Positions 2,269-48,700 of a stretch of DNA of 52,612 nucleotides are shown in pieces. Positions within the stretch are counted from its first letter, which is position 1; each line of letters opens with the position of its first letter. Position numbers and translations under genes: made by a program. Source of the DNA: Methylococcaceae bacterium (GTDB lineage: Bacteria; Pseudomonadota; Gammaproteobacteria; Methylococcales; Methylomonadaceae). A model generated the notes under the pieces. The model made no database searches and was not told the DNA's origin. It worked only from the letters and a program-made list of their open reading frames with translations. The stretch is taken from NCBI GenBank assembly GCA_013141375.1, contig JABFRC010000260.1, forward strand, positions 1 to 52,612, read 5' to 3'.

Positions 2269-5200
2269 ATGACTGCATTTAAATCATTGCCAAACGCGCT
2301 GAAATTATCGGCGTTGATGGCAATCTATTTTGCAACCGGGCAGGTTGCATTTGCCGCGCCCAAGCCCGCGATCAGCAAGCTTGCTTATAATATTGCTACG
2401 CATACGCTTGACGTGTCGGGCAAAGCAACGACTGCTGTGAACTTATATGATGCCGGAGCGGATCAATGGTTGGCATCGGCAACGCCGGTCAACGGCAAAT
2501 TCAGTTTCTCGCTAGCCGACTTGCCGGTTAAGCCGTGTTCAGTCAGATTGGAAGCTGGTGGTGCTTCGGTAGTGGGCAAGCTTGCGAAAACGCCCGGCTG
2601 CCTCAAAGGTGACTTGCCGCCAATTTGTAAGATCGACACTCCCAGCGCCGATCAGGTCATCAAGTTTGGGGAAACGCTTAACTTTAGTGGTTCTGCAACA
2701 GATCCTGACGGCACCTTGTTAAATTATGAATGGGACTTCGGCGGCGGAGCATCCGCGCGTCCAACCACATCTTCTGCCGGCAATATCAAATTTGATGCGC
2801 GTGATAATACCGCTTACATCGTTAGCTTTATTGCCACTGATTTAAGCGGGCGTCGTTGCGCTGATCATGTCAATGTCACGGTAGGAACACCACCGACAGC
2901 ACCAGCCAAAGTGCCGGAACAAGCCAAGGCGGCAAATGGTGCAGACAGCTCAGAACATGTGGTATTACCGTTTACACCTTTTAGTATGGAATTTCATGAC
3001 CTGACTTATAAAGGCATGTCGCAGATGTACCCGGTAAGTTGGTTAAATGCGGTGGTACTTAAAAAAGGTTCTGTAGGTGCGAAAGATAAGCCAGCATTTT
3101 TGAAAAAAAATGATGTTCAATTAAGCTTTACAGCAGCATCCAACCCCCGAGACCCTGTCGGTTTCGGATCAATCAACTCAACCAGTCAAAATTACCCGGT
3201 CAACAAAGCGTATAGCGCGGCAAGCATCAAAAAGACCGATTACTTTGATCCTTGCGAATATACCGGTGAGACTTACAAAGACAGTAAAGTTACCATTAGA
3301 GGTGAGGAACTGGGAGTAGCTGCAGGGTCTAATCATCCGATTACTAAAGCGTCATGCAGTTTTGGCGTGTTTGGTAAATTTGATGTTGCGAAAACGGAAA
3401 AAACTTTTGGTGCGGTCGAAATATTGCCGGATGAAGGTCAACAATTCTACGATCCTGCGCCTTGGTCAAGATGGGACGAGGTACCGCCAGGATCAGATAA
3501 CTGGGTGCAAACTTTTTTTGGCTACAATGAGCCCAATGGGGTGGCGATGCCTGGCGTTACCGACCCATATAAGGTTAATGAGCCCCAGGCTTTTAATGCT
3601 TTCGATGCCGACAAGAATATATTCGCTGCAAATGGTATTGCTTTATTCCCAACCGATGATCAGGGTCGCCATAACGCTTATCCTGTTATGAGAGTGCAGG
3701 CGGAAGCAGACGGTAAAGTCTTGGCAACCGGTGATGCAGTGATGGGAGTAAGTACCGAGTTTAACTGTGCGGAATGTCATACTTACGGCAAAATTGGTGC
3801 CGATCAAGCGGTTTACAACAAACTTAAGACTGATGTCGAAGCCAGCACAGCGGGAAGTCCTTTAGAAAAATACAAGCCATTCGTTGACCATATTCCCCAA
3901 TTTGTTAAACCCGAAGATATCGATCCAGTACGTAAAGCTGAGCGTGATGTCATTGAACAAGCGGCCATGTTGAATGTGGCTGAGCTCCATGATTTTATCT
4001 ATGGCTTTGCTAGAATCCTTAATACTGTCAATAAGCCATGGCCAGCTGATGGCATTACACTGATGAGTTATACCAACGGCACCCCCAATTCCTGTGGGGC
4101 CTATTGTCATCGTTCCGATCCTAAGGTTAATGAAACTTGGGGGCCAATGACAGTTGGACTTACCAATGATAAAGGAGAAGTAAAAATCGGTCTTGCTGGA
4201 GCGTGCCCGGAATATTCCAACTCCATGCATAACACGCATGGAAGAATGTTAGGCAAACTTAATGCAGATTTCACGGGCAGTATTGAGCGTGATTCTGTAG
4301 ATCAGTCCTTTAAAATGGCAGACTTAACAAAGAAAGCGGATCCTTTGCATCCCTTCTTGTTGGAAGTTAAAGATTCCGGTACTCCGGAATCCAGCTGTCT
4401 TTTTTGTCATCAGGGTAAACAGGATAAATACCAACGTGACGTAATGACGTCTGCAGGCGTCAACTGTATAGATTGTCATGGAGACATGGCTGTCCTTGCT
4501 GGCGGATCGGCGATGGCAACTCGTTCTACCGGTCCGAATGACTCCATCAATCCACCCGATAATAATGGCACGACCAGTTTTGAACATTTGCCGCGTCATT
4601 CCTATCGGGATGGTTTGCCAAGTTGCGCCTCTTGTCATAGCGGTATAGGCGAAGAACCGGTGTTGCGTCGGAGTTACGATATGACCACGGGCAAATTCAA
4701 TATTTTAGCTGCAAAAAACGAACGATTTGCAGAAAATCTGACGCCTAGAATAACGGATGAAGTGCTGCCGAATTCGAATAACACGTTTAAACCAGTTGAA
4801 GTCGAAAAAGATGGTAAATCCTGTCCGCCAGGCACCTTCTCGGACACATTGGCATCAGGAAAAAATGTCTGCGAAAGAGGTATATTCAGAAACAGTCTGG
4901 ATCATCATGCCAAACTGCCTTGTTCAAGTTGCCACGGGCCTACGCATGCGATTTGGCCAAATCCGGACCCTTATGCCAATGACAACGTGACGGCGATGCA
5001 ATTGCAAGGTCACACCGGCACTATTTTGGAATGTACTGCTTGCCATACCAAAGATGCCTTTAATAAAGTGGATAGCATTGGTAGCACGGTGAATTATCCG
5101 GATAAAGCAGGCAATCCAACAATTTTGGCCGGTCCCCATAATACCCATCCGATTAATGATCCGAATTGGGTCAACAAAGACGGTGGTTTCCATAACCAAT

Positions 5201-5406
5201 GGGCCAAAAAACCAGGTTTGGATGGCGAAGACCAATGCGCTGCTTGCCATGGCAAAGACCATAAAGGTACGCGCTTGTCGAAAACACCGGTGGATCGTGT
5301 GTTGACGGCCGGCAAGACCATGAAGTTTAAACAAATCACGGTTAAAGCCGGTACGCCGATTGGCTGTGATTTGTGTCATGACGTGGCGCAAAGCTTTAAA
5401 AAATAA
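2269..5406 (+). CDS. Exported nine-heme cytochrome c with PKD domain
   Basis: A large exported electron-transfer protein (1045 aa). ATG 2269 follows AGAGGA and begins a Sec signal peptide. After an Ig-like N-terminal part, a PKD-type domain spans about residues 115-205 (it contains YEWDFGGG). A further non-heme region reaches about residue 495. The C-terminal half has nine heme-binding sites starting at C500, C609, C710, C733, C786, C885, C922, C990 and C1033. Eight are CXXCH; the one at C609 is CXXXCH (CGAYCH), an uncommon variant. No lipobox or C-terminal anchor is visible, so it may be periplasmic or surface-exposed. It heads a run of secreted genes and is followed by a beta-propeller gene 125 bp later. 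A role in extracellular or periplasmic electron transfer is inferred; the electron donor and acceptor are unknown. Confidence 0.88.
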   Translation: MTAFKSLPNALKLSALMAIYFATGQVAFAAPKPAISKLAYNIATHTLDVSGKATTAVNLYDAGADQWLASATPVNGKFSFSLADLPVKPCSVRLEAGGASVVGKLAKTPGCLKGDLPPICKIDTPSADQVIKFGETLNFSGSATDPDGTLLNYEWDFGGGASARPTTSSAGNIKFDARDNTAYIVSFIATDLSGRRCADHVNVTVGTPPTAPAKVPEQAKAANGADSSEHVVLPFTPFSMEFHDLTYKGMSQMYPVSWLNAVVLKKGSVGAKDKPAFLKKNDVQLSFTAASNPRDPVGFGSINSTSQNYPVNKAYSAASIKKTDYFDPCEYTGETYKDSKVTIRGEELGVAAGSNHPITKASCSFGVFGKFDVAKTEKTFGAVEILPDEGQQFYDPAPWSRWDEVPPGSDNWVQTFFGYNEPNGVAMPGVTDPYKVNEPQAFNAFDADKNIFAANGIALFPTDDQGRHNAYPVMRVQAEADGKVLATGDAVMGVSTEFNCAECHTYGKIGADQAVYNKLKTDVEASTAGSPLEKYKPFVDHIPQFVKPEDIDPVRKAERDVIEQAAMLNVAELHDFIYGFARILNTVNKPWPADGITLMSYTNGTPNSCGAYCHRSDPKVNETWGPMTVGLTNDKGEVKIGLAGACPEYSNSMHNTHGRMLGKLNADFTGSIERDSVDQSFKMADLTKKADPLHPFLLEVKDSGTPESSCLFCHQGKQDKYQRDVMTSAGVNCIDCHGDMAVLAGGSAMATRSTGPNDSINPPDNNGTTSFEHLPRHSYRDGLPSCASCHSGIGEEPVLRRSYDMTTGKFNILAAKNERFAENLTPRITDEVLPNSNNTFKPVEVEKDGKSCPPGTFSDTLASGKNVCERGIFRNSLDHHAKLPCSSCHGPTHAIWPNPDPYANDNVTAMQLQGHTGTILECTACHTKDAFNKVDSIGSTVNYPDKAGNPTILAGPHNTHPINDPNWVNKDGGFHNQWAKKPGLDGEDQCAACHGKDHKGTRLSKTPVDRVLTAGKTMKFKQITVKAGTPIGCDLCHDVAQSFKK

Positions 5407-5415
5407 GTTCGTAGG

Positions 5416-5439
5416 GTGGGCACCTTTTTGGGTGCCCAC
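5416..5439. repeat. GTGGGCACC palindrome (copy 1)
   Basis: A 9-bp perfect stem, GTGGGCACC / GGTGCCCAC, with a short T-rich loop lies just after the nine-heme cytochrome gene. A second copy of the same design lies at 43670-43694 after the cytochrome c gene of the oxidase operon. There is no strong U-tract after the stem, so this is more likely a dispersed intergenic palindrome than a classical terminator, though it may reduce read-through. Confidence 0.6.
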
Positions 5440-5531
5440 ATGGAATCAGGCAATGAGTGGTGGGCAGAACAACGATGTCCACCCTCCTGCTTGAACTACC
5501 TATCTTCAGACCTAAACAACAGGTGAATTAC

Positions 5532-6632
5532 ATGATAAAAATACCAACCAAGCTGATAACACTGTCGGCTTTGATTGCAGCACAATGCGCATTGTCGATA
5601 GTCTGGGCGGCGACTCCCGGTCGCGTCGTAGTGGCTAACCGCACCTCCGGTACGCTGTCCATCATTGATGAAAATACCGATACCTTGATTCGTAACGTTT
5701 CTGTTGCCGGTAAGTTTGCGCGTCCGCCTGAACCGATGTACGTCAACTATTCGGCCAAATACAATCGTTTATTGGTCAATGACCGGGCCAACAAACAGAT
5801 CATTGCACTGGATGCCGATACCTACCATATCATCAACGCCGTGCCGGCGGGTAAAGGCGCGTTTCACATGTGGACAGATGGCGTCGGCAAGCAGACGTGG
5901 TCAGTCAATGACGTTGATAAAACCTTCACCGTCATTAATCCCGGCACTTTACAAGTCTTGAAAACCATCCCCATCCCGGCCGATCTAAAAGAGAAGGGCG
6001 GCAAACCTCACGATATTCTTTTGGACAAAGCTGGTAAATGGGCGATTACCACGATTGTAGGCGTTGGTGCAGCCACTGACCCTGACTATGTCGTGCAGTA
6101 CAGCACCAAAACCTTCAAGGAAATCGCTCGTAAGGAGGTAGGTAAAGATCCGCATGTCGGCGTATTAAACGATGGCAAGCTGCTGTTTGTGCCTACTCAA
6201 AATGCCAGTAAAGTCTATGTGATGGATCCCAATAAAAAATTGGCGCTTCTTAAAACTCTGGATATTCCCGGTGCGCATGGTGCGGCCTGGACACCCAATG
6301 GTCACTTCTTTTACACCAGCAACCTGCCGAAAGCGGCAGCAGCAGATGGTAATAAAGACATGCTCTGGGCGATCAACACCCAAACCCAAGAGATTGCCGG
6401 ATCTACAGCATTTCCGAGTCTGGAAGGATTGCAGCCGGCGCATAACCTCACCATCAATGCGGATGGCAGCAAACTGTACCTGACCCATTCCGGACATGAG
6501 CCGGGATCGGTTGAAGGTGATGTGACGGTTTACACTATTTCTGACAGCAGCCCGATTCCAGTGTTTACAGGCAAAGCCATAGGCGTGGGCCTCAACCCCT
6601 TCGGCATCGGTTATATTCCGCCACATAAGTAA
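5532..6632 (+). CDS. Secreted YVTN-type beta-propeller protein
   Basis: A 366-residue exported protein. ATG 5532 follows AGGTGA and opens a Sec signal peptide of about 26 residues; the frame extends upstream to 5457 but without signal-peptide character. The mature protein is built of repeated beta-blades of the YVTN/YncE type, for example VVANRTSGTLSIIDENTDTL near the start, ending in a PFGIGYIPPHK tail. Such propellers bind partners, cofactors or metals; no heme motif is present. It lies between the nine-heme cytochrome and the PKD/Ig-like gene (15-bp gap to the latter) and is probably co-transcribed with them. The large multicopper oxidase at 45795 is likewise followed by a propeller gene, which suggests a recurring partnership. 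The specific function is not known. Confidence 0.85.
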   Translation: MIKIPTKLITLSALIAAQCALSIVWAATPGRVVVANRTSGTLSIIDENTDTLIRNVSVAGKFARPPEPMYVNYSAKYNRLLVNDRANKQIIALDADTYHIINAVPAGKGAFHMWTDGVGKQTWSVNDVDKTFTVINPGTLQVLKTIPIPADLKEKGGKPHDILLDKAGKWAITTIVGVGAATDPDYVVQYSTKTFKEIARKEVGKDPHVGVLNDGKLLFVPTQNASKVYVMDPNKKLALLKTLDIPGAHGAAWTPNGHFFYTSNLPKAAAADGNKDMLWAINTQTQEIAGSTAFPSLEGLQPAHNLTINADGSKLYLTHSGHEPGSVEGDVTVYTISDSSPIPVFTGKAIGVGLNPFGIGYIPPHK

Positions 6633-6647
6633 AACTATTCGAAGAAC

Positions 6648-7772
6648 ATGAAAACGCTTTCCGGCAGATTTTTACAATCCTCTTTGAACGACATGGCTTC
6701 TGCAACGTTGTTTGAAAAGGTGTGTGGCATCAGGCGCTTATTGCTTGTCTGCTTAGTGACAATGCTGCCGGTGGCTAATGTTGATGCCCTGGATTTAGGC
6801 AAACAACTTTCGGCCCAGTTGGATGAAAAACCTGTCTATGACCCGGCCAGCAAAGAGTTTGTCTGGGCTGGGATGTTACGAAATATTACCCATCAGGCTG
6901 TCAATGCACCGGTTGCCTTGGTCGTGGACAGCCTGTTACCAGCGGATACAACGATTACTCTGCAACAAAGTGATGGCTTAGTGCCGGAAGGCTCTGCCTA
7001 TACGGTGATCTTAAAACAAGGCGCCATTGAAGCGGATTCGGAAGTGCGCTTTTTTGTCCATTTTGCCTTTGCCAATCCGGTCAGTGCCCTGGCGGGTGAG
7101 GCATTGGAAAAGGTAGTCGTCAAGACTTTAAAGTCGCCACAGCTTGCCCAACCAAATTTTCAATTTAACTACCATCTGGCAAAAATACCTGCTGGTAATC
7201 AGCGTCCCATAGCCAATGCGTCTATCAGCCAGAGTGGCCCGGTAGGCTCAGAATTTAGTTTTGATGGTTCAACATCCAGTGATGCTGATCAGCACGGCTT
7301 GAGTTATGTCTGGAAAATTACCGGCAGACCCAATGGCAGCATTGCCCAATTGCAAAACTTCACAACAGCCAAACCCTCAATTTTTCCGGATATTCCAGGT
7401 GAATACAGGGTGAGTTTAGTTGTTAACGATGGATATTTTGATAGTGCTCCTGATGAAGTAAGCATTTATGTGGAAACTGATGGTACGGTCAATCGCAGTC
7501 CGATTATTAGTTCCTCAGCCGCTGGCTCAGGAACGGCGACTCGGGAGTATTCCTATCCGGTGATTGCCGGAGATGCGGATGGTGATCAATTAACCTATAC
7601 ATTATCCAAAGCACCGGTGGGCATGTCGATTACAGCTGGCGGCGTTATTCAATGGAAAGTTGCCAACTCACCTCATGAACATATTCCCGTCGAGGTTGAG
7701 GTCAGTGATGGCCGGGGTGGTATAGCGGTCCAAAAATTCAGCATTCATATCATGCCTTGCACCTGTATTTAG
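6648..7772 (+). CDS. Exported PKD/Ig-like domain protein
   Basis: A 374-residue protein with a hydrophobic export segment at about residues 29-48, preceded by an unusually long N-terminal tail; an internal ATG at 6693 would give a more typical signal peptide. After an unassigned beta-rich domain comes a PKD domain (about residues 185-275, with SSDADQHGLSYVWKI and GEYRVSLVVNDG), then a cadherin/He-PIG-like Ig domain (about 280-370, with DADGDQLTYTLSKAPVGM). These folds mediate adhesion or protein-protein contact at the cell surface. It follows the beta-propeller gene by 15 bp and ends 2 bp before the next start, so translation is probably coupled. It is likely a structural partner of the secreted redox proteins (inference). 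Confidence 0.8.
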   Translation: MKTLSGRFLQSSLNDMASATLFEKVCGIRRLLLVCLVTMLPVANVDALDLGKQLSAQLDEKPVYDPASKEFVWAGMLRNITHQAVNAPVALVVDSLLPADTTITLQQSDGLVPEGSAYTVILKQGAIEADSEVRFFVHFAFANPVSALAGEALEKVVVKTLKSPQLAQPNFQFNYHLAKIPAGNQRPIANASISQSGPVGSEFSFDGSTSSDADQHGLSYVWKITGRPNGSIAQLQNFTTAKPSIFPDIPGEYRVSLVVNDGYFDSAPDEVSIYVETDGTVNRSPIISSSAAGSGTATREYSYPVIAGDADGDQLTYTLSKAPVGMSITAGGVIQWKVANSPHEHIPVEVEVSDGRGGIAVQKFSIHIMPCTCI

Positions 7773-7774
7773 TT

Positions 7775-8302
7775 ATGCATTCATTTAACTATTCTAATTT
7801 TCGTCCGAGATCGTTTTTGCTGGCACTGTTGCTCAGTAGTTTTTCATTTACCACTTGCGCTGATATTACCGGGCAATGGAATTTAGCCGGAACATTGCGG
7901 GTCGATAGTAAGCTGGCCGGAAAGGCAGTGACACTCAAAAAGCCCAACCAAATCTTGCTCGCTGATTTTACCAACAATGAGATGCTGCCTCGGGTTGTGT
8001 TCAGCAGTAATGCGCTGGAATTATCCGGGCAGTGGCTTGAAGCAAAGTCGACTTACCAAATTAATTCAGATGCTGTGTCAGTGCGTGGGCTTTTACGCGT
8101 GATCGAAAAAGATCTTCGGGTTCGATCAGGGATTGAGGTGAGTCTGGAGGAGGATAAGGTCAACTTTACCGGCAAAAAACGCAAAGACGGAAAATTAGAC
8201 GGAAAATTATCAATCAAAGCCAAAGTTTTTTTACTGGGAGCCGCTGATAAAAAAGGGGCTTTAACCATAACGTATACATTTGTCGGCATTCGTAAAATAT
8301 AA
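7775..8302 (+). CDS. Small secreted protein, unknown function
   Basis: About 175 residues. The ATG at 7775, 2 bp after the preceding stop, is preferred; an in-frame TTG at 7757 also exists. A signal peptide of about 28 residues ends near FTTCADITG. The cysteine there does not sit in a good lipobox, so lipoprotein status is doubtful. The mature part starts ITGQWNLAGTLRVDSKL and looks like a small beta-barrel or beta-sandwich with alternating hydrophobic residues and many lysines toward the C terminus. I do not recognise a family. Its tight coupling to the PKD/Ig-like gene suggests a shared assembly role. Confidence 0.7.
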   Translation: MHSFNYSNFRPRSFLLALLLSSFSFTTCADITGQWNLAGTLRVDSKLAGKAVTLKKPNQILLADFTNNEMLPRVVFSSNALELSGQWLEAKSTYQINSDAVSVRGLLRVIEKDLRVRSGIEVSLEEDKVNFTGKKRKDGKLDGKLSIKAKVFLLGAADKKGALTITYTFVGIRKI

Positions 8303-8548
8303 AAATGCAGGATGGTTCGAACGCAGCGAAACCCATCGCATTTGGTGATATTTATGATGGGTTTCACTGAGCTCTCGGCAACTGCTCCATGCGTTGCTCT
8401 ATCCCCAGCATCCATGCCGTCGTACCCATCCTGCGAGACTGTTCGACTTATACCTCTTGCATGCCCGGTACAGCGGTGCAGGCTCTCCAAACAGTCGTAC
8501 CCGTTCTCTAGACCATACAACAATAACGAAAATCAGGAAATTAAGCGC
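8303..8548. repeat. Intergenic palindromic repeat region before the haloperoxidase gene
   Basis: These 246 bases hold nested inverted repeats. An outer pair pairs a GCAGGATGG-type arm (from about 8307) with CCATCCTGC near 8425. An inner pair is AAACCCATC (8329-8337) with GATGGGTTT (8355-8363). Within it, 8373-8414 matches, in reverse orientation, a stretch at about 330-370 inside the element near the left edge. The open frame of the following gene extends through this repeat, but it is treated as untranslated because a good start with signal peptide lies at 8549. Confidence 0.55.
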
Positions 8549-11200
8549 ATGACTTTCTATAAAACAGGGGCCTCAATTGTTATTTTGCTGCTCGCTTCAT
8601 TGCAGATTACCGCGGCCGGTCAGCCTAGCAAAGCCCAAAAACAGTGTGTCCTATCTTTACAAGCGGCTGGTGCCAGTGTCGCCTTGACTGCAAGTAAAGC
8701 GACAATCGCTTGCGTCAGCAAAAAAAATCACGATAAAACCACGGCATTTGACCTGGCAAACTGTCTTGGAGCGATTGAAAGCCAGGTGCTTCAGCGTGCA
8801 AAAGATAAAACTGTCGCTGTCGCAGAAAAAAACTGCAAGGAAATTCCCAGTTTCGGGCCTGCAAATGCTCAGGATGTGAATGCTGCCTTTGCCAAATCAG
8901 TAGATTTAAGCAAAATTTTCGGTGATGACATAAACGCAAAAGTGCAGTCCAGCAAAGTCGATGCTAAGACGGCGAATTGCCAATTAGTCTTGGCCGAGCA
9001 ACTGGCAAGTCTGGTGCGTACTGAAATTGCCGAATACGGAAGTTGTAGCAAAAAATTATTTTCAAAAGGGACGGCTACAACAGTCTCCGACATTCAAGCA
9101 TGCGCAGAGCAGCAATCTAAAACGTTGTTGAAAGCTAAAGTGGCGGCATACAAACGTATAGAAGCAAAATGCGCACTGGATTCTTCAAGCATGGTCGCAT
9201 CCGGTCAATGTGCCGATTCCGCTTCCACAAGCGAACTGGCAACATGTCTGGCAGCTCAGGCGCATTGCGATGCGTCAATAGCGCTAAATAAAAGTAACCG
9301 TATTGATGCTTCCGGTCATCAATTCAAAGATGGGGTTGCGACTTTTTATTGCGGGTCAAAACCAGCACAGAGTCAATCTGTCGCCAGGCAATGGAATGAA
9401 GTGAATCTTTCTGCAATTCGTATCGACAACCCGCGCCCACCGGTACATGCCCGCAATTTGTTTCATTTGTCAGCGGCCATGTACGATGCCTGGGCGGTTT
9501 ATGACATGAAGGCTAAACCGTATTCGACAGCGGAGCCCATCAATTCTAGTGATAAGCAACATGACAGGGAAATAGCCATTAGTTTTGCAGCCTACCGCAT
9601 TCTAGCTGAGCGGTATTCCAAGCAGCATTCGCTGGGATCAGTTGTTTCTGAAGCCAGCTTTAATAAGCAAATGAATATTCTGGGTTTGGATAAGAACTAT
9701 GCAGATATAACAGGCGACGCGCCTGCGGCGGTTGGCAATCGAATTGCACACAGCATACTTACTGAAGCGATGTCTGATGGGTCAAATGAGGCCAGTGATT
9801 ATGCGGATCCAAGCTATCAGCCGGTCAATAGCCCGTTAATTGTCAAGGAGCCGGGGTTTGAAATTACCGATTCGTTTGATCCCAATCGATGGCAACCTCT
9901 GGCACTGGACAAAACAGTCACTCAAAACGGCATCACTTTGCCTGACAAGGTTCAGACTTCTATCGGTTCTCAATGGGGAAGTGTCAAACCCTTTGCAATT
10001 ACCAAATCAGCGTCGACAGAGTTGTATCTTGATCCAGGTCCACAGCCCTTACTTGGCGGTTTAGGCGATGCCCAATTTAAGGCGGAAGTAGTTCAACTGA
10101 TTGAATTGGCGAGTCAGTTGACACCAGATGATCAAACAGTGGTAGATATTTCACCGGCTTCTTTTGGGCATAATCAGTTGGCTTCAAATGCAGGTACAGG
10201 TTACGAAAAAAACCCAATCACTGGTCAACCTTATGTGCCGCAATTGGTAAAACGTGGGGATTTTGGCCGGGTATTAGCTGAATGGTGGGCGGATGGTCCT
10301 ACCTCTGAAACCCCTCCGGGGCATTGGAATGCGATCGCCAATCATGTGGCCGACACTCCCGGTTTTGAACGCCGATTTAAAGGCAGCGGGTCGACACTCG
10401 ATCCGTTGGAATGGGATGTAAAAACCTATTTTGCATTGAATGGTGCGACCCATGATGCGGCCATTGCCGCCTGGGGCGCAAAGCGTAAATATGATGGTGT
10501 ACGTCCCATCACGATGGTTCGCTATATGGCCAAACAAGGTCAGTCATCCGATCCTGCTAAACCTCATTATCATGCTCACGGCTTACCCCTTAAACCAGGC
10601 TTGGTTGAGTTGATTACTGCCGAAAGTTCGGCAGCCGGACAACGTCATGCTGCCTTGGTTGCTGCAGGTGCAAAAATAAATGACATCGCCTTATATTCCT
10701 GGCCAGGCGCACCGGCTAATCAAAAAGATGATTACAGCGGTGTTAAATGGATTTTAGGCACCGAATGGGTGCCTTATCAGCGCCCTACATTCGTTACTCC
10801 GGCATTTCCCGGCTATATTTCCGGACATAGTACTTTTAGCCGTGCGGCTGCAGAAGTGCTGGCGGCTATTACGGGCAGCGAATATTTTCCCGGCGGGCTT
10901 TATGAATACGCCATCCCCAAAGATACTTATTTGATCCACGAACATGGCCCATCCCAGGATGTTAAGCTGCAGTGGGCCAGTTATTTTGATGCCTCTGATC
11001 AGTCAGGTCGATCCAGGCTTTGGGGCGGAATTCATCCCGAAGCCGATGACTTTGCCGGTCGAAAGGTGGGGCATCAAGCAGGAATGGCAGCCTTTACCAA
11101 GGCGGTTTCTTATTTTAACAACAGTGTTGCATCCCCTGCTGAGACCACATTTATTGGTGTCTTACCTGAAATTGATCAACGTCCCCTTCAACCCTTTTAG
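8549..11200 (+). CDS. Exported vanadium-dependent haloperoxidase family protein
   Basis: An 883-residue protein. ATG 8549 follows AGGAAA and starts a signal peptide. Residues of about 25-260 form a cysteine-containing helical N-terminal domain of unknown role. The rest is a PAP2/vanadium haloperoxidase domain with a full set of vanadate-binding residues by motif: K645 and R652 (KRKYDGVRP), S758-G759-H760 (ISGHS) and R823/H829 (RLWGGIH). The K-to-R and R-to-H spacings (7 and 6) match vanadium chloroperoxidase. Family members use hydrogen peroxide to oxidise halides; related proteins act as phosphatases, so the activity here is inferred. It is preceded by the secreted redox genes and followed by an OFA transporter. 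Haloperoxidases need peroxide, which could come from nearby redox chemistry, but that link is speculative. Confidence 0.85.
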   Translation: MTFYKTGASIVILLLASLQITAAGQPSKAQKQCVLSLQAAGASVALTASKATIACVSKKNHDKTTAFDLANCLGAIESQVLQRAKDKTVAVAEKNCKEIPSFGPANAQDVNAAFAKSVDLSKIFGDDINAKVQSSKVDAKTANCQLVLAEQLASLVRTEIAEYGSCSKKLFSKGTATTVSDIQACAEQQSKTLLKAKVAAYKRIEAKCALDSSSMVASGQCADSASTSELATCLAAQAHCDASIALNKSNRIDASGHQFKDGVATFYCGSKPAQSQSVARQWNEVNLSAIRIDNPRPPVHARNLFHLSAAMYDAWAVYDMKAKPYSTAEPINSSDKQHDREIAISFAAYRILAERYSKQHSLGSVVSEASFNKQMNILGLDKNYADITGDAPAAVGNRIAHSILTEAMSDGSNEASDYADPSYQPVNSPLIVKEPGFEITDSFDPNRWQPLALDKTVTQNGITLPDKVQTSIGSQWGSVKPFAITKSASTELYLDPGPQPLLGGLGDAQFKAEVVQLIELASQLTPDDQTVVDISPASFGHNQLASNAGTGYEKNPITGQPYVPQLVKRGDFGRVLAEWWADGPTSETPPGHWNAIANHVADTPGFERRFKGSGSTLDPLEWDVKTYFALNGATHDAAIAAWGAKRKYDGVRPITMVRYMAKQGQSSDPAKPHYHAHGLPLKPGLVELITAESSAAGQRHAALVAAGAKINDIALYSWPGAPANQKDDYSGVKWILGTEWVPYQRPTFVTPAFPGYISGHSTFSRAAAEVLAAITGSEYFPGGLYEYAIPKDTYLIHEHGPSQDVKLQWASYFDASDQSGRSRLWGGIHPEADDFAGRKVGHQAGMAAFTKAVSYFNNSVASPAETTFIGVLPEIDQRPLQPF

Positions 11201-11548
11201 GCTAATTCGCCTGCGGTTCCTATGCATAAATTCTTCGACAGGCTCAGTACGCGGTAACTTATTGATTTCGTTCGTAGTGAGCTTGTTGAGCGCTCTCCTG
11301 AGCGCAGTCGAAGGGTATGAGCGAAATCAATTTGTTCAGTTCTTTCCTAAATAAGCTGTATGCAATGCCCTGCAATTTTATGCAGGCATGGAGTAACCAA
11401 CCTCTATTGATGTTTGCTCGCCAATCGAGCAAACATGTCTCTTCTATCTGCTCGAGTTCTGGCAATAATTGAGCGCTCCAGTTAATATCATGAATTTTCA
11501 GCTTTCGTTGATTTTCATTCGATTTATTAGTTACTCAAGATATTTATC
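11201..11548. repeat. Intergenic region with imperfect palindromic repeat
   Basis: No gene is seen. From about 11234 to 11345 there is an imperfect palindrome of the CTTCGACAGGCTCAGTACG type. ATTGATTTCG near 11257 pairs with CGAAATCAAT near 11323, with GC-rich inner arms (GAGCGCTC, CTGAGCGCAG). The outer arm resembles sequence near 1728-1752. The remainder up to the MFS gene is AT-rich and probably holds its promoter, which I cannot place. Confidence 0.45.
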
Positions 11549-17475: not shown

Positions 17476-17574
17476 AGTAGATTATTGAAGGCTAATTGCT
17501 TTTGTGATGAAAAGTGAAGAGTCTGATTTTGGATTAGTGATATGGGTACAACTTACATCTATTGGAGAAATTTA

Positions 17575-18435
17575 ATGAAACGTCTTTTTTATGCTTTACC
17601 AGTATTGGTAATGCCGCTGTTTTCCCAAAGCGCTGATGCTTTGGTGATTTCTACTAGCACAAATGCAACTTCACTAGCTAATACATTAGCAGGAAGCGGA
17701 ATTACAGTAACAAGTGCATCATTGATTGGGGCGCCTACTCAGCAAGGCACTTTTACAGATGGATTAAGCAGTGGCTTGGGTATTGATACGGGTGTGATTT
17801 TAACAAGCGGTAATGCAACATTAGCGCCTGGCCCTAATAATTCAGCGGGTATATCTGCGTCTACCGGGACAGGAACAAATGCTCAGTTGAATGGTTTACT
17901 TCCTTCAGGTTCTACAACTAATGACCAGAATCAACTGTCATTTTCATTTACAAGCAACACGGGCGATCTTTTCTTTCAATATCAATTTGCATCTGAAGAA
18001 TATAACGAGTTCGTTAATTCAAAATACAATGATGTGTTCGGATTTTTTGTGGATGGCGTTAATATAGCTCTTGTTCCAGGCACTACGACTCCGGTTTCAA
18101 TCAATACTATTAATGGTGGAAATCCGTTTACCGGTGTTGGCCCTAATAGTGGATATTATGTAAATAACAGCCAGACTACTCCCCTTTATAACATTCAATA
18201 CGACGGCTTTACAAAAGTGTTAGTGGCCAGTATTTTAGGATTGGCAGCAGGCGAACACACTATAAATTTAGCTATCGCTGATACTGAGGATACAGCTCTT
18301 GACTCTGCGGTGTTTCTAAAAGCTGGTAGTTTTACAGACACAAAGCCAAATGTACCAGAGCCTGCAACTTTGGCTATGTTGGGCTTGGGATTCGCTGGGT
18401 TTGGCGCTATGCGGCGTAAAAATAAAAAGGGTTAA
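17575..18435 (+). CDS. PEP-CTERM, choice-of-anchor L domain protein
   Basis: A 286-residue exported protein. ATG 17575 follows TTGGAGAAA and begins a Sec signal peptide of about 23 residues. The body matches choice-of-anchor L proteins (for example FQFASEEYNEFVNSKYNDVF-like sequence in the middle, here YQFASEEYNEF, and LAIADTEDTALDSAVFL near the end). The C terminus is a full PEP-CTERM sorting signal: VPEPATL, a hydrophobic helix, then RRKNKKG. Such proteins are thought to be processed by exosortase and delivered to the cell surface or extracellular matrix. No exosortase gene is in the window. The gene stands alone, with a sigma-54-type promoter upstream and a hairpin downstream. Confidence 0.92.
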   Translation: MKRLFYALPVLVMPLFSQSADALVISTSTNATSLANTLAGSGITVTSASLIGAPTQQGTFTDGLSSGLGIDTGVILTSGNATLAPGPNNSAGISASTGTGTNAQLNGLLPSGSTTNDQNQLSFSFTSNTGDLFFQYQFASEEYNEFVNSKYNDVFGFFVDGVNIALVPGTTTPVSINTINGGNPFTGVGPNSGYYVNNSQTTPLYNIQYDGFTKVLVASILGLAAGEHTINLAIADTEDTALDSAVFLKAGSFTDTKPNVPEPATLAMLGLGFAGFGAMRRKNKKG

Positions 18436-40783: not shown

Positions 40784-41395
40784 ATGCAAAATGACACTAT
40801 AAAAGCTAGAGGCCTGCAGATATATCGAGAGGTACTGGTTCAACTTAATGCAATTCATATCGATCATCTGGAACGGAAATGGATAGGCATTTCCATCTTA
40901 ATTATTTCCTTATTGGTCGGCATTATTACCCTTGATGCATTTTTTCATGGCGTTAATCCACCCAGTAAAGTCGAAACCATCGATTCTGCCAGCCTGCATT
41001 TAAGCAAAGAATTTGCTGAAGAAAACCTTGGCGTGCAAATTGATGACAAAGGCAATGTTGTGGTTCGTATGGTTGCCGGACGTTATTCATTTTTCCCAAA
41101 ACACATTGATGTGCCTGCTGAAACGCCAATTACTTTTCGTTGGGTGAGCATGGATGTTGTCCATGGTGTGCATATCCCCATGACTAATATGAGTACGATG
41201 ATCGTGCCGGGTTATGTGGCTGAAATTACAACCAGCTTTCCTAAACCGGGCGAATATCCACTGTTGTGTAATGAATATTGCGGTTTAGGCCATAACCACA
41301 TGTGGAGCAATATCTCGGTTATCGAAAAAGAACAATGGACGTCCAAACAAAATGCGCCAGCGTCTGCACCAAAGGGAGGATCAGCTAATGAATAA
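40784..41395 (+). CDS. Cytochrome c oxidase subunit II (B-type)
   Basis: A 203-residue subunit that takes electrons from cytochrome c through a dinuclear CuA site. A single N-terminal membrane helix (about residues 32-52) is followed by a periplasmic cupredoxin domain. CuA ligands are visible in VVHGVHIP and LLCNEYCGLGHNHMW (C-x3-C-x3-H-x2-M). It overlaps the subunit I start by 8 bp. The single anchor helix and short length fit B-type (ba3-like) enzymes rather than aa3. Confidence 0.92.
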   Translation: MQNDTIKARGLQIYREVLVQLNAIHIDHLERKWIGISILIISLLVGIITLDAFFHGVNPPSKVETIDSASLHLSKEFAEENLGVQIDDKGNVVVRMVAGRYSFFPKHIDVPAETPITFRWVSMDVVHGVHIPMTNMSTMIVPGYVAEITTSFPKPGEYPLLCNEYCGLGHNHMWSNISVIEKEQWTSKQNAPASAPKGGSANE

Positions 41396-43013
41396 CGCAG
41401 CAGAAAAAAAACTGGCCTTAAGTCATCTATGGGTGGCGTTTGCAGCTTTTATTGTGGCCTGTTTTATGGGCGAATATCAGGTCTTGGAACGTAGCGGCTT
41501 ATTTCCCTCATTGGAATCGCCTACTGTTTATTTTGCTTCCGTCAGTACCCATGGCGTGTTGATGGCATTTGTGTTGACAACCTTCTTTATCATGGGTTTT
41601 GGCTACTACATTGCCAGTACCAGCCTTAAACAACCAGTCTGGAATAAACCGCTGGCATGGGGCGGCTTCTGGCTAGCTTTAATCGGCGTTGTGCTGGCCG
41701 CTTTACCATTGCTGAGCGGTAAAGCGTCAGTGTTGTATACCTTTTATCCGCCGATAGTCGCGCATGCGGCGTTTTATATTGGCGCAACTTTGCTGGTGGT
41801 GGGTTCATGGGTTTGGTGCGCAATCATGCTGGTGATGTTCACCCAGTGGAAAAAAGCCAATCCCGGTCAAAACGTGCCCTTAGCGATGTTTGCCACAGCC
41901 GCCAATGCCTTGTTGTGGCTCTGGGCCAGTGCCGGTGTAGCCTTGGAAGTGCTCTTTCAATTGATTCCTTTTTCTTTGGGATGGATTGATACCATCGATC
42001 CGGGCTTAGCTAAAACCTTGTTCGCCTGGACCTTACATCCGATTGTGTATTTCTGGCTGATTCCGACTTACACCGCGTTTTATGTATTTGTACCCAAACA
42101 AGCCGGTGGCTTTTTATTCAGCGATGAAATGGCCAGACTGGCATTTGTCGTGTTGGTGGTATTTGCGTTGCCGATTGGTTTCCATCATTTATACATGGAT
42201 CCGGAACAAGCTAAAGGCTGGAAGTTACTGCACGGTATCGGTACTTTTGTGGTGGCCTTACCTACCTTAGTGACAGGCTTTACCGTAATTGCGTCGCTGG
42301 AAATTGCCGGCAGACTGCGCGGCGGTAAAGGTTTGTTCGGCTGGATAGGTACCTTGCCATGGACCAATCCGATGGTGTTGGCAGTTATTTTGGCGTTGTT
42401 GATGCTAATCTTCGGCGGCTTCGGCGGCATTGTGAATGCCAGTTATGCAATGAATGCGATGATTCACAACACCGCCTGGGTCCCAGGCCATTTCCATCTG
42501 ATTTTTGCCGGGACTACCGTCATTATGTATTTGGCGATCGCCTATTATTTGTGGCCAATTTTGGTCGGCAAGCCGCTGTTTTCAAACTCGATGGCTTTGG
42601 TGCAGTTATGGACGTGGTTTATCGGCATGAGCGTGTTGACGACACCCTGGCATGTGTTGGGGTTGTTAGGTCAGCCGAGGCGAATTTCCACTGTGGTGTA
42701 TAACAATCTACTGACCTTGTCGTGGAAGCCTTATGAACTGATGATGATCTTAGGCGGTCTGATTTTGTTGGGTTCAGCATGTTTGTTCATTTACAACTTA
42801 GTTAAAACCCAGCTGACACCACTTGCCGGCGAATTCACCGCCGAGATCGAATACGCCGAGCCGATTCATGCCGTCGGTGTACTGCCTGAGTACCTCAATG
42901 GTTTGATGCTTTGGAATAAAGTTATCGCCGTGTTGATGGCAATCAGTTTTGGTTATCCAATTCTGCAATTCTTTTTTATGAAAACTTTTGGCTCAAGCGT
43001 GTGGGGATATTAA
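41388..43013 (+). CDS. Cytochrome c oxidase subunit I (B-type, ba3-like)
   Basis: The catalytic heme-copper subunit (541 aa, about 13 membrane helices). ATG 41388 follows GGGAGGA. The CuB histidine region reads HPIVYFWLIPTY, the B-type form without the glutamate of A-type HPEVY; GFHHLY gives the HH pair; and NTAWVPGHFHLIFAG carries the heme-ligand histidines. It reduces oxygen to water and probably pumps protons. High-affinity B-type oxidases suit low-oxygen conditions. The cytochrome c gene starts 3 bp after its stop. Confidence 0.94.
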   Translation: MNNAAEKKLALSHLWVAFAAFIVACFMGEYQVLERSGLFPSLESPTVYFASVSTHGVLMAFVLTTFFIMGFGYYIASTSLKQPVWNKPLAWGGFWLALIGVVLAALPLLSGKASVLYTFYPPIVAHAAFYIGATLLVVGSWVWCAIMLVMFTQWKKANPGQNVPLAMFATAANALLWLWASAGVALEVLFQLIPFSLGWIDTIDPGLAKTLFAWTLHPIVYFWLIPTYTAFYVFVPKQAGGFLFSDEMARLAFVVLVVFALPIGFHHLYMDPEQAKGWKLLHGIGTFVVALPTLVTGFTVIASLEIAGRLRGGKGLFGWIGTLPWTNPMVLAVILALLMLIFGGFGGIVNASYAMNAMIHNTAWVPGHFHLIFAGTTVIMYLAIAYYLWPILVGKPLFSNSMALVQLWTWFIGMSVLTTPWHVLGLLGQPRRISTVVYNNLLTLSWKPYELMMILGGLILLGSACLFIYNLVKTQLTPLAGEFTAEIEYAEPIHAVGVLPEYLNGLMLWNKVIAVLMAISFGYPILQFFFMKTFGSSVWGY

Positions 43014-43657: not shown

Positions 43658-43669
43658 ATATAGCCGTTG

Positions 43670-45794: not shown

Positions 45795-48700
45795 ATGTCA
45801 AAAATAATAACCACCCTGCCTAGCCATGCATGCCTTAAGGATAATCTTCGCGCAATGCGAGGATTGATGATGAAGGGCAGCTTACTTTTACTGATGTTAG
45901 GTGCAAATCAGCTGGCTCAAGCCTGTGTGAATGCCGATGTCGTTGCCTTAGACCAAGTTTTTTATTACAACCGATTGGGGGCAATGAACCCTTCGGGAAT
46001 GATTTTCGCGTTGAAACGTGATGTGGTGGCAATAACAGGTGCAAACCCCTCACCGGGTAATGCAATGTTACGTCCCGACAAGCGGCCCCGACCTTTGGTG
46101 CTGCGCGTTAACGAAGGCGATTGTTTGACTGTCCACTTCACTAATTTGCTAAGTCCCACCTTAACCGGATCATTACTGAATCCGGTAGTGCCCGATGTTT
46201 CAGGTCCTAATGCCGTCAGCACCAAAAATGACGATGCCCCATCTACTCGGTCTGCTTCATTTCATGTAATGGGCATGCAGGTCAAAGACATCATTTCGGA
46301 TGCATCCAATGTTGGCAATAATCCTAACGGTCTGGCAAATCCTGGTGAGAGTAAAATCTATACGTTTTACGCCCAAAAAGAAGGCACTTATTTTGCTTAT
46401 AGCACCGCTGCAACTACCGGTGGTGAAGGCGATGGCGGCTCACTCTCGCAAGGCTTGTTCGGTGCGGTCAATGTCGAAAACAAAGGTTCCCAATGGTATC
46501 GCAGCCAGGTCACCGAACAGGACCTGGCATTGGCGACCAGTGATGGAACGAAGTCGGATGGCAAATATTACCCCGTCATTGATTACGCCGCGGTTTATCC
46601 GGCCGTGGATACCCGCAAGCCTGCTGAGCAGCTCATTTTGATAACTAATCAGGATGGCAGTCCCACCGCAACCGCAACCTTATCGAAAATAAGCAGTAAT
46701 ATCGGCTTTGTCGCTGCGGATGTCGGTAAAACCTTGCTTGGAAAAATGGGTAAAGCGCTGATTAATCAAGTTAATCCGGATGGCTCGGCTAATGTCACAA
46801 TTCTTGAACCCTTCAACGCCGAAATTCCGCCATATAGCTGGAGAATTGAAGGTACCGCCGCACATCCATTTGCCGGAACGCCGATATTGAACATGCTTGA
46901 TGGCAGCGGCAATATCGTTCATTCCGATATTAACGCCATCATCACCGGCACTAACTTAGGCCCATTTGGCACCAATGAAGAGCCCCTGAATGCGGTTTAT
47001 CCCGGCCGTAGCGATCCCTTTCGCGAATTTACCGTCATCTTTCATGACGAAATCAAGGCAGTCCAGGCCTTTCCCGCCTGGTTTAACGATCCGGTGCTAA
47101 TTCACACCTTGCATGGCGTCAGAGACGGGTTTGCCATAAATTACGGCTCTGGCGGTATTGGTTCGGAAATTATTGCCAACCGCTTGAAACTCGGTCCAAT
47201 GAAAGACTGTATCGAGTGTAAATATGAGGAATTCTTTTTAACCTCGTGGGTGCTTGGTGATCCGGCGATGGTGGTTGATGTACCGGCGGGCATCAATGCT
47301 GATGGTATGGGCGTGGTGGCTAATCCGCAGTTTGCTACCAAGGCATACTTTCCCGATGATCCTTCCAATGTCCATCATAGTTATTTGAATGACCGCGTCA
47401 AATTTAGAAATTTACATGCGGGGCCTAAAGAACACCATATATTTCATTTACACGCCCACCAATGGTTACACAGTCCTGATAACGATAACTCCGCGTATTT
47501 AGATAGCCAAAGCATTGGGCCGGGTAGCGCTTACACATACGAAATTACTCATCACGGCAGTGGTAACCGTAATCGTACACCGGGAGACTCTATTTTTCAT
47601 TGCCATTTTTATCCTCATTTTGCCCAAGGTATGTGGGAATTCTGGCGAGTGCATGATGTTTTGGAAACCGGCACCGTACTGGATGGCGAAGGCAGACCGG
47701 CTTCTGGTTCCCGTGCCTTGCCCGATAATGAAATTAAGGTAGGCACCCCAATTCCAGCATTGGTGCCAATGCCATCGATGGCTTTGGCACCCTTACCGGG
47801 TGCCAAAGCAGAAATCGAATATATTGCCGGCGTTCCGACTGGACAAATTAAATTGCCGGATGTGGTGTCGGGTAACCCTGGTTACCCGTTTTTTATTGCC
47901 GGGGTAGCCGGTCATCGCCCACCGCATCCACCTCTGGATACCGTTGTTGACGGCGGCTTGCCGCGGCATGTGGTGACTGATGGCACAGCAACCAGTTTCC
48001 AGGATCGCAACAACTTCAACAGAATCATCAATACATTGGCCGCCAAAAAATTGCCTGAAACCGGTACGCCTTGGGAAAGACAGGCGATGATATTTCATGG
48101 TGGCGATGATACGACTATTGGCCCGAAAAGCTACAACACCCCCAAACCCGATGGTAGTGTCGGCTCATTCAAGGTCAATGGCTTGCCTGCCATCGCGGGT
48201 GCGCCATTTGCCGATCCCTGTATTAACGACAATCAGCAAGCTGTAACCGGCAAAGATCGTTTCTATCATGCAGCGGCCATTCAACTGGATGTCAAAATGA
48301 ATAAGGCAGGCTGGCATTTTCCGCAACAGCGCGTGATGACGCTTTGGGATGATGTGGCTGATACCATGAATGGGATAAGGCCGCCGGAGCCTATGTTTTT
48401 CAGGGCAAACACTGGCGATTGTATTACCTTTGAACATACCAACCTTGTACCTAATGTCTATCAACAGGATGATTTTCAGGTGACGACACCGACCGATATT
48501 ATCGGTCAGCACATTCATCTGGTTAAATTTGACGTGACATCTTCCGATGGCTCCGGTAATGGCTGGAACTATGAAGACGGCACTTTTAGTCCTGAAGAAA
48601 TTCATGAGCGTCTGGTCGCCATTAATGAACCTACCGGACAATGGCAAGATGCTGATTCCGGGAATACCAAACCGGCTGTTTGTGATTTAACAGGGTTTGA

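Follow-up and report, generated by a model that had tools for sequence, protein, structure and literature searches.

Five neighboring genes in a Methylococcales genome, four of which keep together across five genera, suggest a redox system of the cell envelope that has yet to be described. Our preferred reading, to which we give a probability of about 0.45, is that they form a conserved exported redox cassette of the Methylococcales, in which a multiheme cytochrome (CYT) and a metal-binding beta-propeller (PROP) are accompanied by two helper proteins (PKD and SML) and by an acquired vanadium haloperoxidase (VHPO) that uses peroxide. The families themselves are known, and what is new here is their conserved combination.

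Layout of the cassette

The window is the whole stretch of DNA that we analyzed, 52,612 nucleotides long; it corresponds to contig C150 in an assembly of 3.9 Mb and 373 contigs (genome G000). The five genes are found at 2269-11200 on its plus strand, all in order and with the families given in an earlier note on this DNA. That note also held that all five products are exported, which is consistent with their signal-like N-termini as judged by eye. The features are as follows:

2269..5406, plus strand: CYT, predicted exported nonaheme cytochrome c, 1045 aa (from Pfam, heme motifs, and the orthologue alignment)
4093..4110, plus strand: CX3CH heme motif of CYT (C609-C613-H614), unusual, and invariant in seven orthologues
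5410..5439, plus strand: repeat-like palindrome in the CYT-PROP gap (found in the sequence by eye)
5532..6632, plus strand: PROP, predicted exported seven-bladed beta-propeller, 366 aa (from the alignment and a structure model)
6648..7772, plus strand: PKD, predicted exported protein with PKD and Big_9/He_PIG domains (Pfam PKD_4, Big_9, He_PIG)
7775..8302, plus strand: SML, small protein, predicted to be exported, 175 aa (from the orthologue alignment)
8549..11200, plus strand: VHPO family protein, 883 aa (from domains, pocket residues, and orthologue starts)
11410..11436, plus strand: weak terminator-like hairpin of 11 pairs, 3' of VHPO

PROP and PKD are 15 bases apart, PKD and SML are 2 bases apart, and these three genes are likely one transcript. 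The gaps between CYT and PROP (~125 bases) and between SML and VHPO (~246 bases) are longer, and one transcript for the whole cassette is possible. There is repeat-like DNA in the CYT-PROP gap, and the left arm of the palindrome found there has one near copy, at 43665. We call the hairpin downstream of VHPO weak because the region has 4 such sites, compared with a mean of 11.5 in shuffles. Among the five cassettes whose upstream DNA was inspected, the motif GTGATATG precedes CYT in three (G152, G149, and G012), and it was not found upstream of CYT in the window or in G202. At the loci L124, L126, and L077 it is repeated upstream of CYT (L126 has two copies, and L077 has a palindrome), and these repeats are possible regulator sites.

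Elsewhere on the plus strand of this contig there is a gene for a heme-copper oxidase subunit I (COX1, 41352-43013), a gene for a Choice-of-anchor L protein whose sorting signal is of the PEP-CTERM type (17542-18435), and an open frame of 1753 residues (45795-51056) with a weak multicopper oxidase match near its C-terminus (PF07731, 19.4 bits, slightly below the cut-off of 20.4).

Conservation of the core genes and of the haloperoxidase linkage

We searched 311 Methylococcales genomes, taking CYT at an E value of 1e-40 or better and the long form of VHPO at 1e-60 or better. Relatives of CYT occur in 40 of the 311, and a group of seven at 55-65% identity (56-65% for the window's CYT against the orthologues of the six other genomes in the alignment) is followed by a gap, with the next relative at 41%. 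In all seven of these orthologue genomes (G000 itself, G152, G149, G202, G012, G109, and G100), which span five genera and two families, PROP, PKD, and SML are found beside CYT, and in six of the seven the order and strand of CYT-PROP-PKD-SML are kept. The exception is G202, where CYT-PROP run in one direction and VHPO-PKD-SML in the opposite direction. The G012 cassette has an insert between PROP and PKD (L077 5258-6998), made up of an amidohydrolase gene and a 144-residue N-terminal cytochrome fragment. The earlier note had tied its proposal to conservation of gene order past the closest relatives, and for the four core genes this conservation is what we observe. Because this order, like the cytochrome-VHPO linkage described next, is kept in five genera, a functional link among the products is likely.

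The long VHPO is present in nine of the 311 genomes (G000, G149, G152, G202, G100, G039, G051, G054, and G083). In all nine, which come from five genera, 488-3146 bases separate VHPO from a gene of the CYT family that has 8 or 9 CX2CH motifs. The full cassette, including the long VHPO, is found in G000, G149, G152, G202, and G100. In the four that belong to the Methylococcus genus (g32: G039, G051, G054, and G083), VHPO converges on a paralogous cytochrome with nine CX2CH motifs, and no PROP, PKD, or SML orthologue adjoins VHPO in any of the four. More giant cytochromes and CcmF-like proteins, recognized by eye, are near VHPO in G039, G054, and G083, and in G051 they are on another contig. G012 and G109 have the four core genes without the long VHPO, and since the Methylococcus-genus VHPO occurs without PROP, PKD, and SML beside it, the core and VHPO halves come apart in both directions. 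The genus to which the window belongs has three further genomes, two of them only 75% and 83% complete, and in these we found no CYT at 1e-40 and no long VHPO.

As a control, we looked for frames with at least three CX2CH motifs near other VHPO genes. Such a frame is present at one of the 12 short-VHPO loci, which come from the ten Methylococcales genomes with clear short matches among 61 relatives; the weak-match genomes G060 and G027 were left out, and four of these stretches are shorter than 14 kb, including two shorter than 6 kb. Of the 76 VHPO loci from outside the order, 8 of which are shorter than 8 kb, two have such a frame. These counts were identical when repeated without ORF filtering. 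At the 76 loci from other taxa there is no match to CYT, PROP, PKD, or SML at 1e-5. The two non-Methylococcales loci with such a frame, L138 and L186, have a frame with ten heme motifs in the flank. By Fisher's test, the proximity of a CYT-family gene to VHPO in 9/9 genomes gives p 3.4e-5 against 1/12 and p 1.3e-10 against 2/76; with five genera instead of nine genomes, which is the fairer version because the nine genomes are related, the values are 1e-3 and 8e-7. Chance proximity of CYT and VHPO is ruled out by 9/9 against these two control counts.

The cluster had been presented as one that joins a cytochrome to a haloperoxidase. That linkage is indeed kept in five genera, but the most constant part of the cassette is CYT-PROP-PKD-SML rather than CYT-VHPO. 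In the titles and abstract openings that our literature search covered, we found no report of a linkage between a haloperoxidase and a multiheme cytochrome.

The haloperoxidase and its ancestry

By its domains and pocket residues, VHPO belongs to the vanadium haloperoxidase family. Its frame opens at 8312, and we chose the start at 8549, which gives a plausible signal peptide and agrees with the orthologues. The protein consists of a Cys-rich helical N-terminal domain (about residues 27-268), DUF6851 (PF21167, 54.9 bits), and the VCPO second helical domain (PF22778, 31.9 bits; the cut-off is 27 for each), with PF21167 found in all nine orthologues and PF22778 in eight of them. K645, R652, S758-G759-H760, R823, and H829, which we take to be the vanadate-pocket motif, are all present, as is a Phe seven positions ahead of the pocket His, presumably as in VCPO. 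The pocket residues are invariant wherever the alignment rows cover them, save in G149, which has a Phe instead of S758 and whose row stops before R823. Both domains and the seven pocket residues are common to VHPO and the vanadium chloroperoxidase type (DUF6851 plus VCPO_2nd), whereas the ~250-residue Cys-rich N-terminal domain sets VHPO apart. All 12 Cys of VHPO fall within residues 33-268, and ten of them are invariant across the nine orthologues. The AlphaFold model has a mean pLDDT of 43.8, and part of the N-terminal helices alone is fair. In the PDB haloperoxidases 9l8x_B and 9ptr_A, a Ser is aligned to the VHPO His of S-G-H.

Among the 76 outside loci, the N-terminal domain was matched from residue 27 or earlier in only six (L135-L138, L140, and L149), which are from Binatia and Deltaproteobacteria. 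We also placed VHPO in a tree made by a quick method and rooted at the midpoint, with 77 rows, including rows from 68 of the 76 outside loci; 80 of 436 VHPO relatives were taken in for the outside comparison. In this tree, the nine Methylococcales long VHPO form one clade (SH-aLRT 99), nested in a 15-row clade whose remaining rows are Binatia and Deltaproteobacteria loci. Because it is nested among these proteins, VHPO looks acquired, and the simplest reading is transfer from a Binatia-like source, a direction that we infer from the tree. The Binatota have been described as methylotrophs (PMC8262859).

A protein that came from elsewhere could also be a passenger, that is, VHPO may have been transferred into a cytochrome-rich region while its expression and function stayed independent. 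Its nesting in another group's clade fits this idea, as do the two core cassettes without it, its orientation (in G202 and in the four genomes from the Methylococcus genus, it does not run in the direction of the cytochrome), and the unusual ~246-base spacer ahead of it. We nevertheless consider a passenger very unlikely: proximity to the cytochrome has been kept in every genome with the long VHPO despite rearrangement, compared with the low counts in both controls.

The nonaheme cytochrome

CYT is built of a PKD domain (about residues 126-205) and a heme part (500-1037), with Cytochrome_C7, Cytochrom_c3_2, MtrC/MtrF domains II/IV, and PKD_4 all above their Pfam cut-offs. It has nine heme motifs, eight CX2CH and one CX3CH, and all nine are invariant in the alignment of the seven orthologues, in which two rows are cut N-terminally by contig ends but cover the heme part. 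In a PDB sequence search, CYT matched only PKD-type domains of collagenases and of an endoglucanase. Seven more contigs of G000 (C112, C363, C206, C292, C57, C245, and C218) have relatives of this giant cytochrome, or fragments of it.

The c553o family and copper-responding cluster 1 of M. capsulatus Bath (MCA0421-0447) likewise include large exported PKD multiheme cytochromes. CYT is ~34% identical to several relatives in M. capsulatus Texas (G051), a comparison that lies outside the named MCA proteins. Unlike the c553o type, the CYT orthologues have the CX3CH heme, followed downstream by PROP-PKD-SML. In sequence, CYT resembles the surface multiheme cytochromes of the c553o type of Methylococcus and would hence be of a known kind. 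The c553o proteins of M. capsulatus are described as being on the cell surface and copper-repressed, several of them with PKD domains (PMC517821, PMC4257694, PMC4831470).

With the decahemes of the MtrC/OmcA type, CYT shares the MtrC/MtrF domain II/IV (PF22113, 33 bits, cut-off 30), whereas these have ten hemes and CYT has nine motifs in all seven orthologues. A domain match above the cut-off agrees with extracellular electron transfer, an idea of the earlier note. On this reading, CYT would pass respiratory electrons to minerals or electrodes, and VHPO would clear the peroxide formed on the way. In the same direction, M. capsulatus Bath is described as making current, which is lower after deletion of MCA0421 (PMC6281684), and porin-cytochrome clusters are described in Methylobacter in a 2026 paper, although these differ from our cassette (PMC13322032). 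Compared with MtrCAB and other porin-cytochrome complexes, however, the cassette includes no porin and no MtrA-like decaheme, CYT has no lipobox by eye, and the histidine-bearing propeller is left unexplained. Among 11 genomes, the MtrB/PioB model PF11854 matched in G109 alone, where the match is a fragment, and had no match in the 373 contigs of G000, which leaves the electron-transfer module unsupported in the form first proposed. The absence of PF11854 is not decisive because the same model missed M. capsulatus Texas, and an MtrB-like barrel is reportedly present in M. capsulatus Bath. Nor did we find sequence evidence for the suggestion that the peroxide comes from respiratory side reactions. 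A part for the cassette in electron transfer is possible, and we consider it unlikely.

The propeller and its small neighbors

Seven His residues (112, 160, 208, 249, 304, 319, and 322) are invariant in the seven PROP orthologues, which are 44-77% identical to the window copy, and two of the orthologues have no His beyond these seven. The set is new here and is absent from six generic propellers of 24-26% identity to PROP, in which none of the seven is found at the aligned columns (0/7). This rules out that PROP is only an ordinary YVTN propeller. Six of the seven His are present in a PROP homologue in G270 and, by eye, in one in G687 (35% identical).

In the structure model (pLDDT 88.8), H112, H160, H249, and H304 lie early in strands that we read as the inner ones of four blades, and H208 has the equivalent place in a fifth blade. 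H319 closes a later strand and is followed shortly by H322. The seven His would probably cluster in space. In structure comparison, the top match was the YVTN surface-layer propeller 1l0q (Z 41.4), with nitrous oxide reductase at Z 36.4 (312 residues at 2.2 A), 6-phosphogluconolactonase at Z 35.6, and thiocyanate dehydrogenases at Z ~34. These matches are of shared fold, not function.

Like the CuZ propeller of nitrous oxide reductase, PROP is seven-bladed, and of its seven invariant His, three can be aligned with invariant His of NosZ. When the PROP profile was compared with one of five NosZ sequences, the match was weak (probability 70%, E 4e-5); H112 and H249 stand opposite invariant NosZ His, H304 does so only in a permissive realignment, and H160, H208, H319, and H322 do not align to any invariant NosZ His. 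All seven PROP match the curated clade III nitrous-oxide-reductase (L-NosZ) model, with 45.5 bits for the window copy where the cut-off is 700. PROP terminates at residue 366, where the propeller ends, and with no CuA domain and a score this far below the cut-off, PROP as a nitrous oxide reductase is ruled out. Another system of the same fold is thiocyanate dehydrogenase with CytC552, described as an exported copper propeller with a cytochrome acceptor (PMC9456337). CytC552 is monoheme, whereas CYT is nonaheme, and thiocyanate dehydrogenase is absent among the 13 PDB sequences matched by the PROP profile up to an E value of 1. The pattern of conserved residues suggests that the PROP His set is a candidate copper-type channel site.

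With its own profile (E 1e-25), PROP is found in 8 of the 311 genomes, namely the seven CYT-orthologue genomes and G270, where it is standalone. In an even sample of the phylum, it is found in 2 of 398 genomes, G000 and G687, the latter from another family of the class. No frame with at least three heme motifs is near PROP in G270 and G687, of which 10 and 20 kb were inspected. Because these homologues are standalone, PROP does not have to act together with CYT.

At the C-terminus of the PKD protein there is an invariant Cys-x-Cys (residues 371 and 373), with one residue at most beyond it in all seven orthologues (the final residue is cut off in two rows of the alignment), and this C-terminal motif is also new here. 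The SML orthologues are 25-41% identical to the window copy, and none of the seven matches a Pfam family.

Seven His and a terminal Cys-x-Cys are ligands of a copper type, which could point to copper handling: PROP and PKD would bind or reduce extracellular copper for uptake when it is limiting, CYT would give the electrons, and VHPO would handle copper-driven peroxide. Copper repression of the c553o surface cytochromes, as described for M. capsulatus (PMC4831470), is in keeping with this. The five genes, however, include no copper transporter and no TonB receptor, and a PROP homologue stands alone in another family of the class (G687), so we think copper handling improbable.

A proposed redox system at the cell envelope

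In the exported redox cassette that we prefer, the seven invariant His of PROP would bind a metal within or close to the channel of the propeller, copper being the most likely one. A small substrate may be oxidized or reduced there, with electrons traded with CYT, which would be a surface cytochrome of the c553o type. We model this pairing on thiocyanate dehydrogenase and its cytochrome, CytC552; another propeller-cytochrome pair described elsewhere is that of methanol dehydrogenase and cytochrome cL (PMC9456337). PKD, with its C-terminal Cys-x-Cys, and SML would be helpers, either in metal delivery or in holding the complex together. To this core, a haloperoxidase from a Binatia-like source would have been added in most lineages. 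VHPO would use hydrogen peroxide, probably formed where reduced hemes meet oxygen, to oxidize a halide or pseudohalide at the envelope, so that peroxide is removed and a short-range oxidant is formed.

It may further be that PROP represents a new enzyme class, a copper-propeller oxidoreductase in direct electron exchange with a nonaheme CYT at the surface, with PKD as its metal donor and VHPO using the peroxide that it produces. We regard this as doubtful; if true, it would mean that methanotrophs have an envelope system that joins copper, heme, and vanadium chemistry.

Methanotrophs invest heavily in surface multiheme cytochromes, the purpose of which is unsettled. The cassette ties one such cytochrome to a probable metal enzyme and a haloperoxidase, and so offers concrete proteins to study. 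If VHPO is active, it would also give methane-oxidizing bacteria a route to reactive halogen at the interfaces of lakes and soils, a matter relevant to natural organohalogens.
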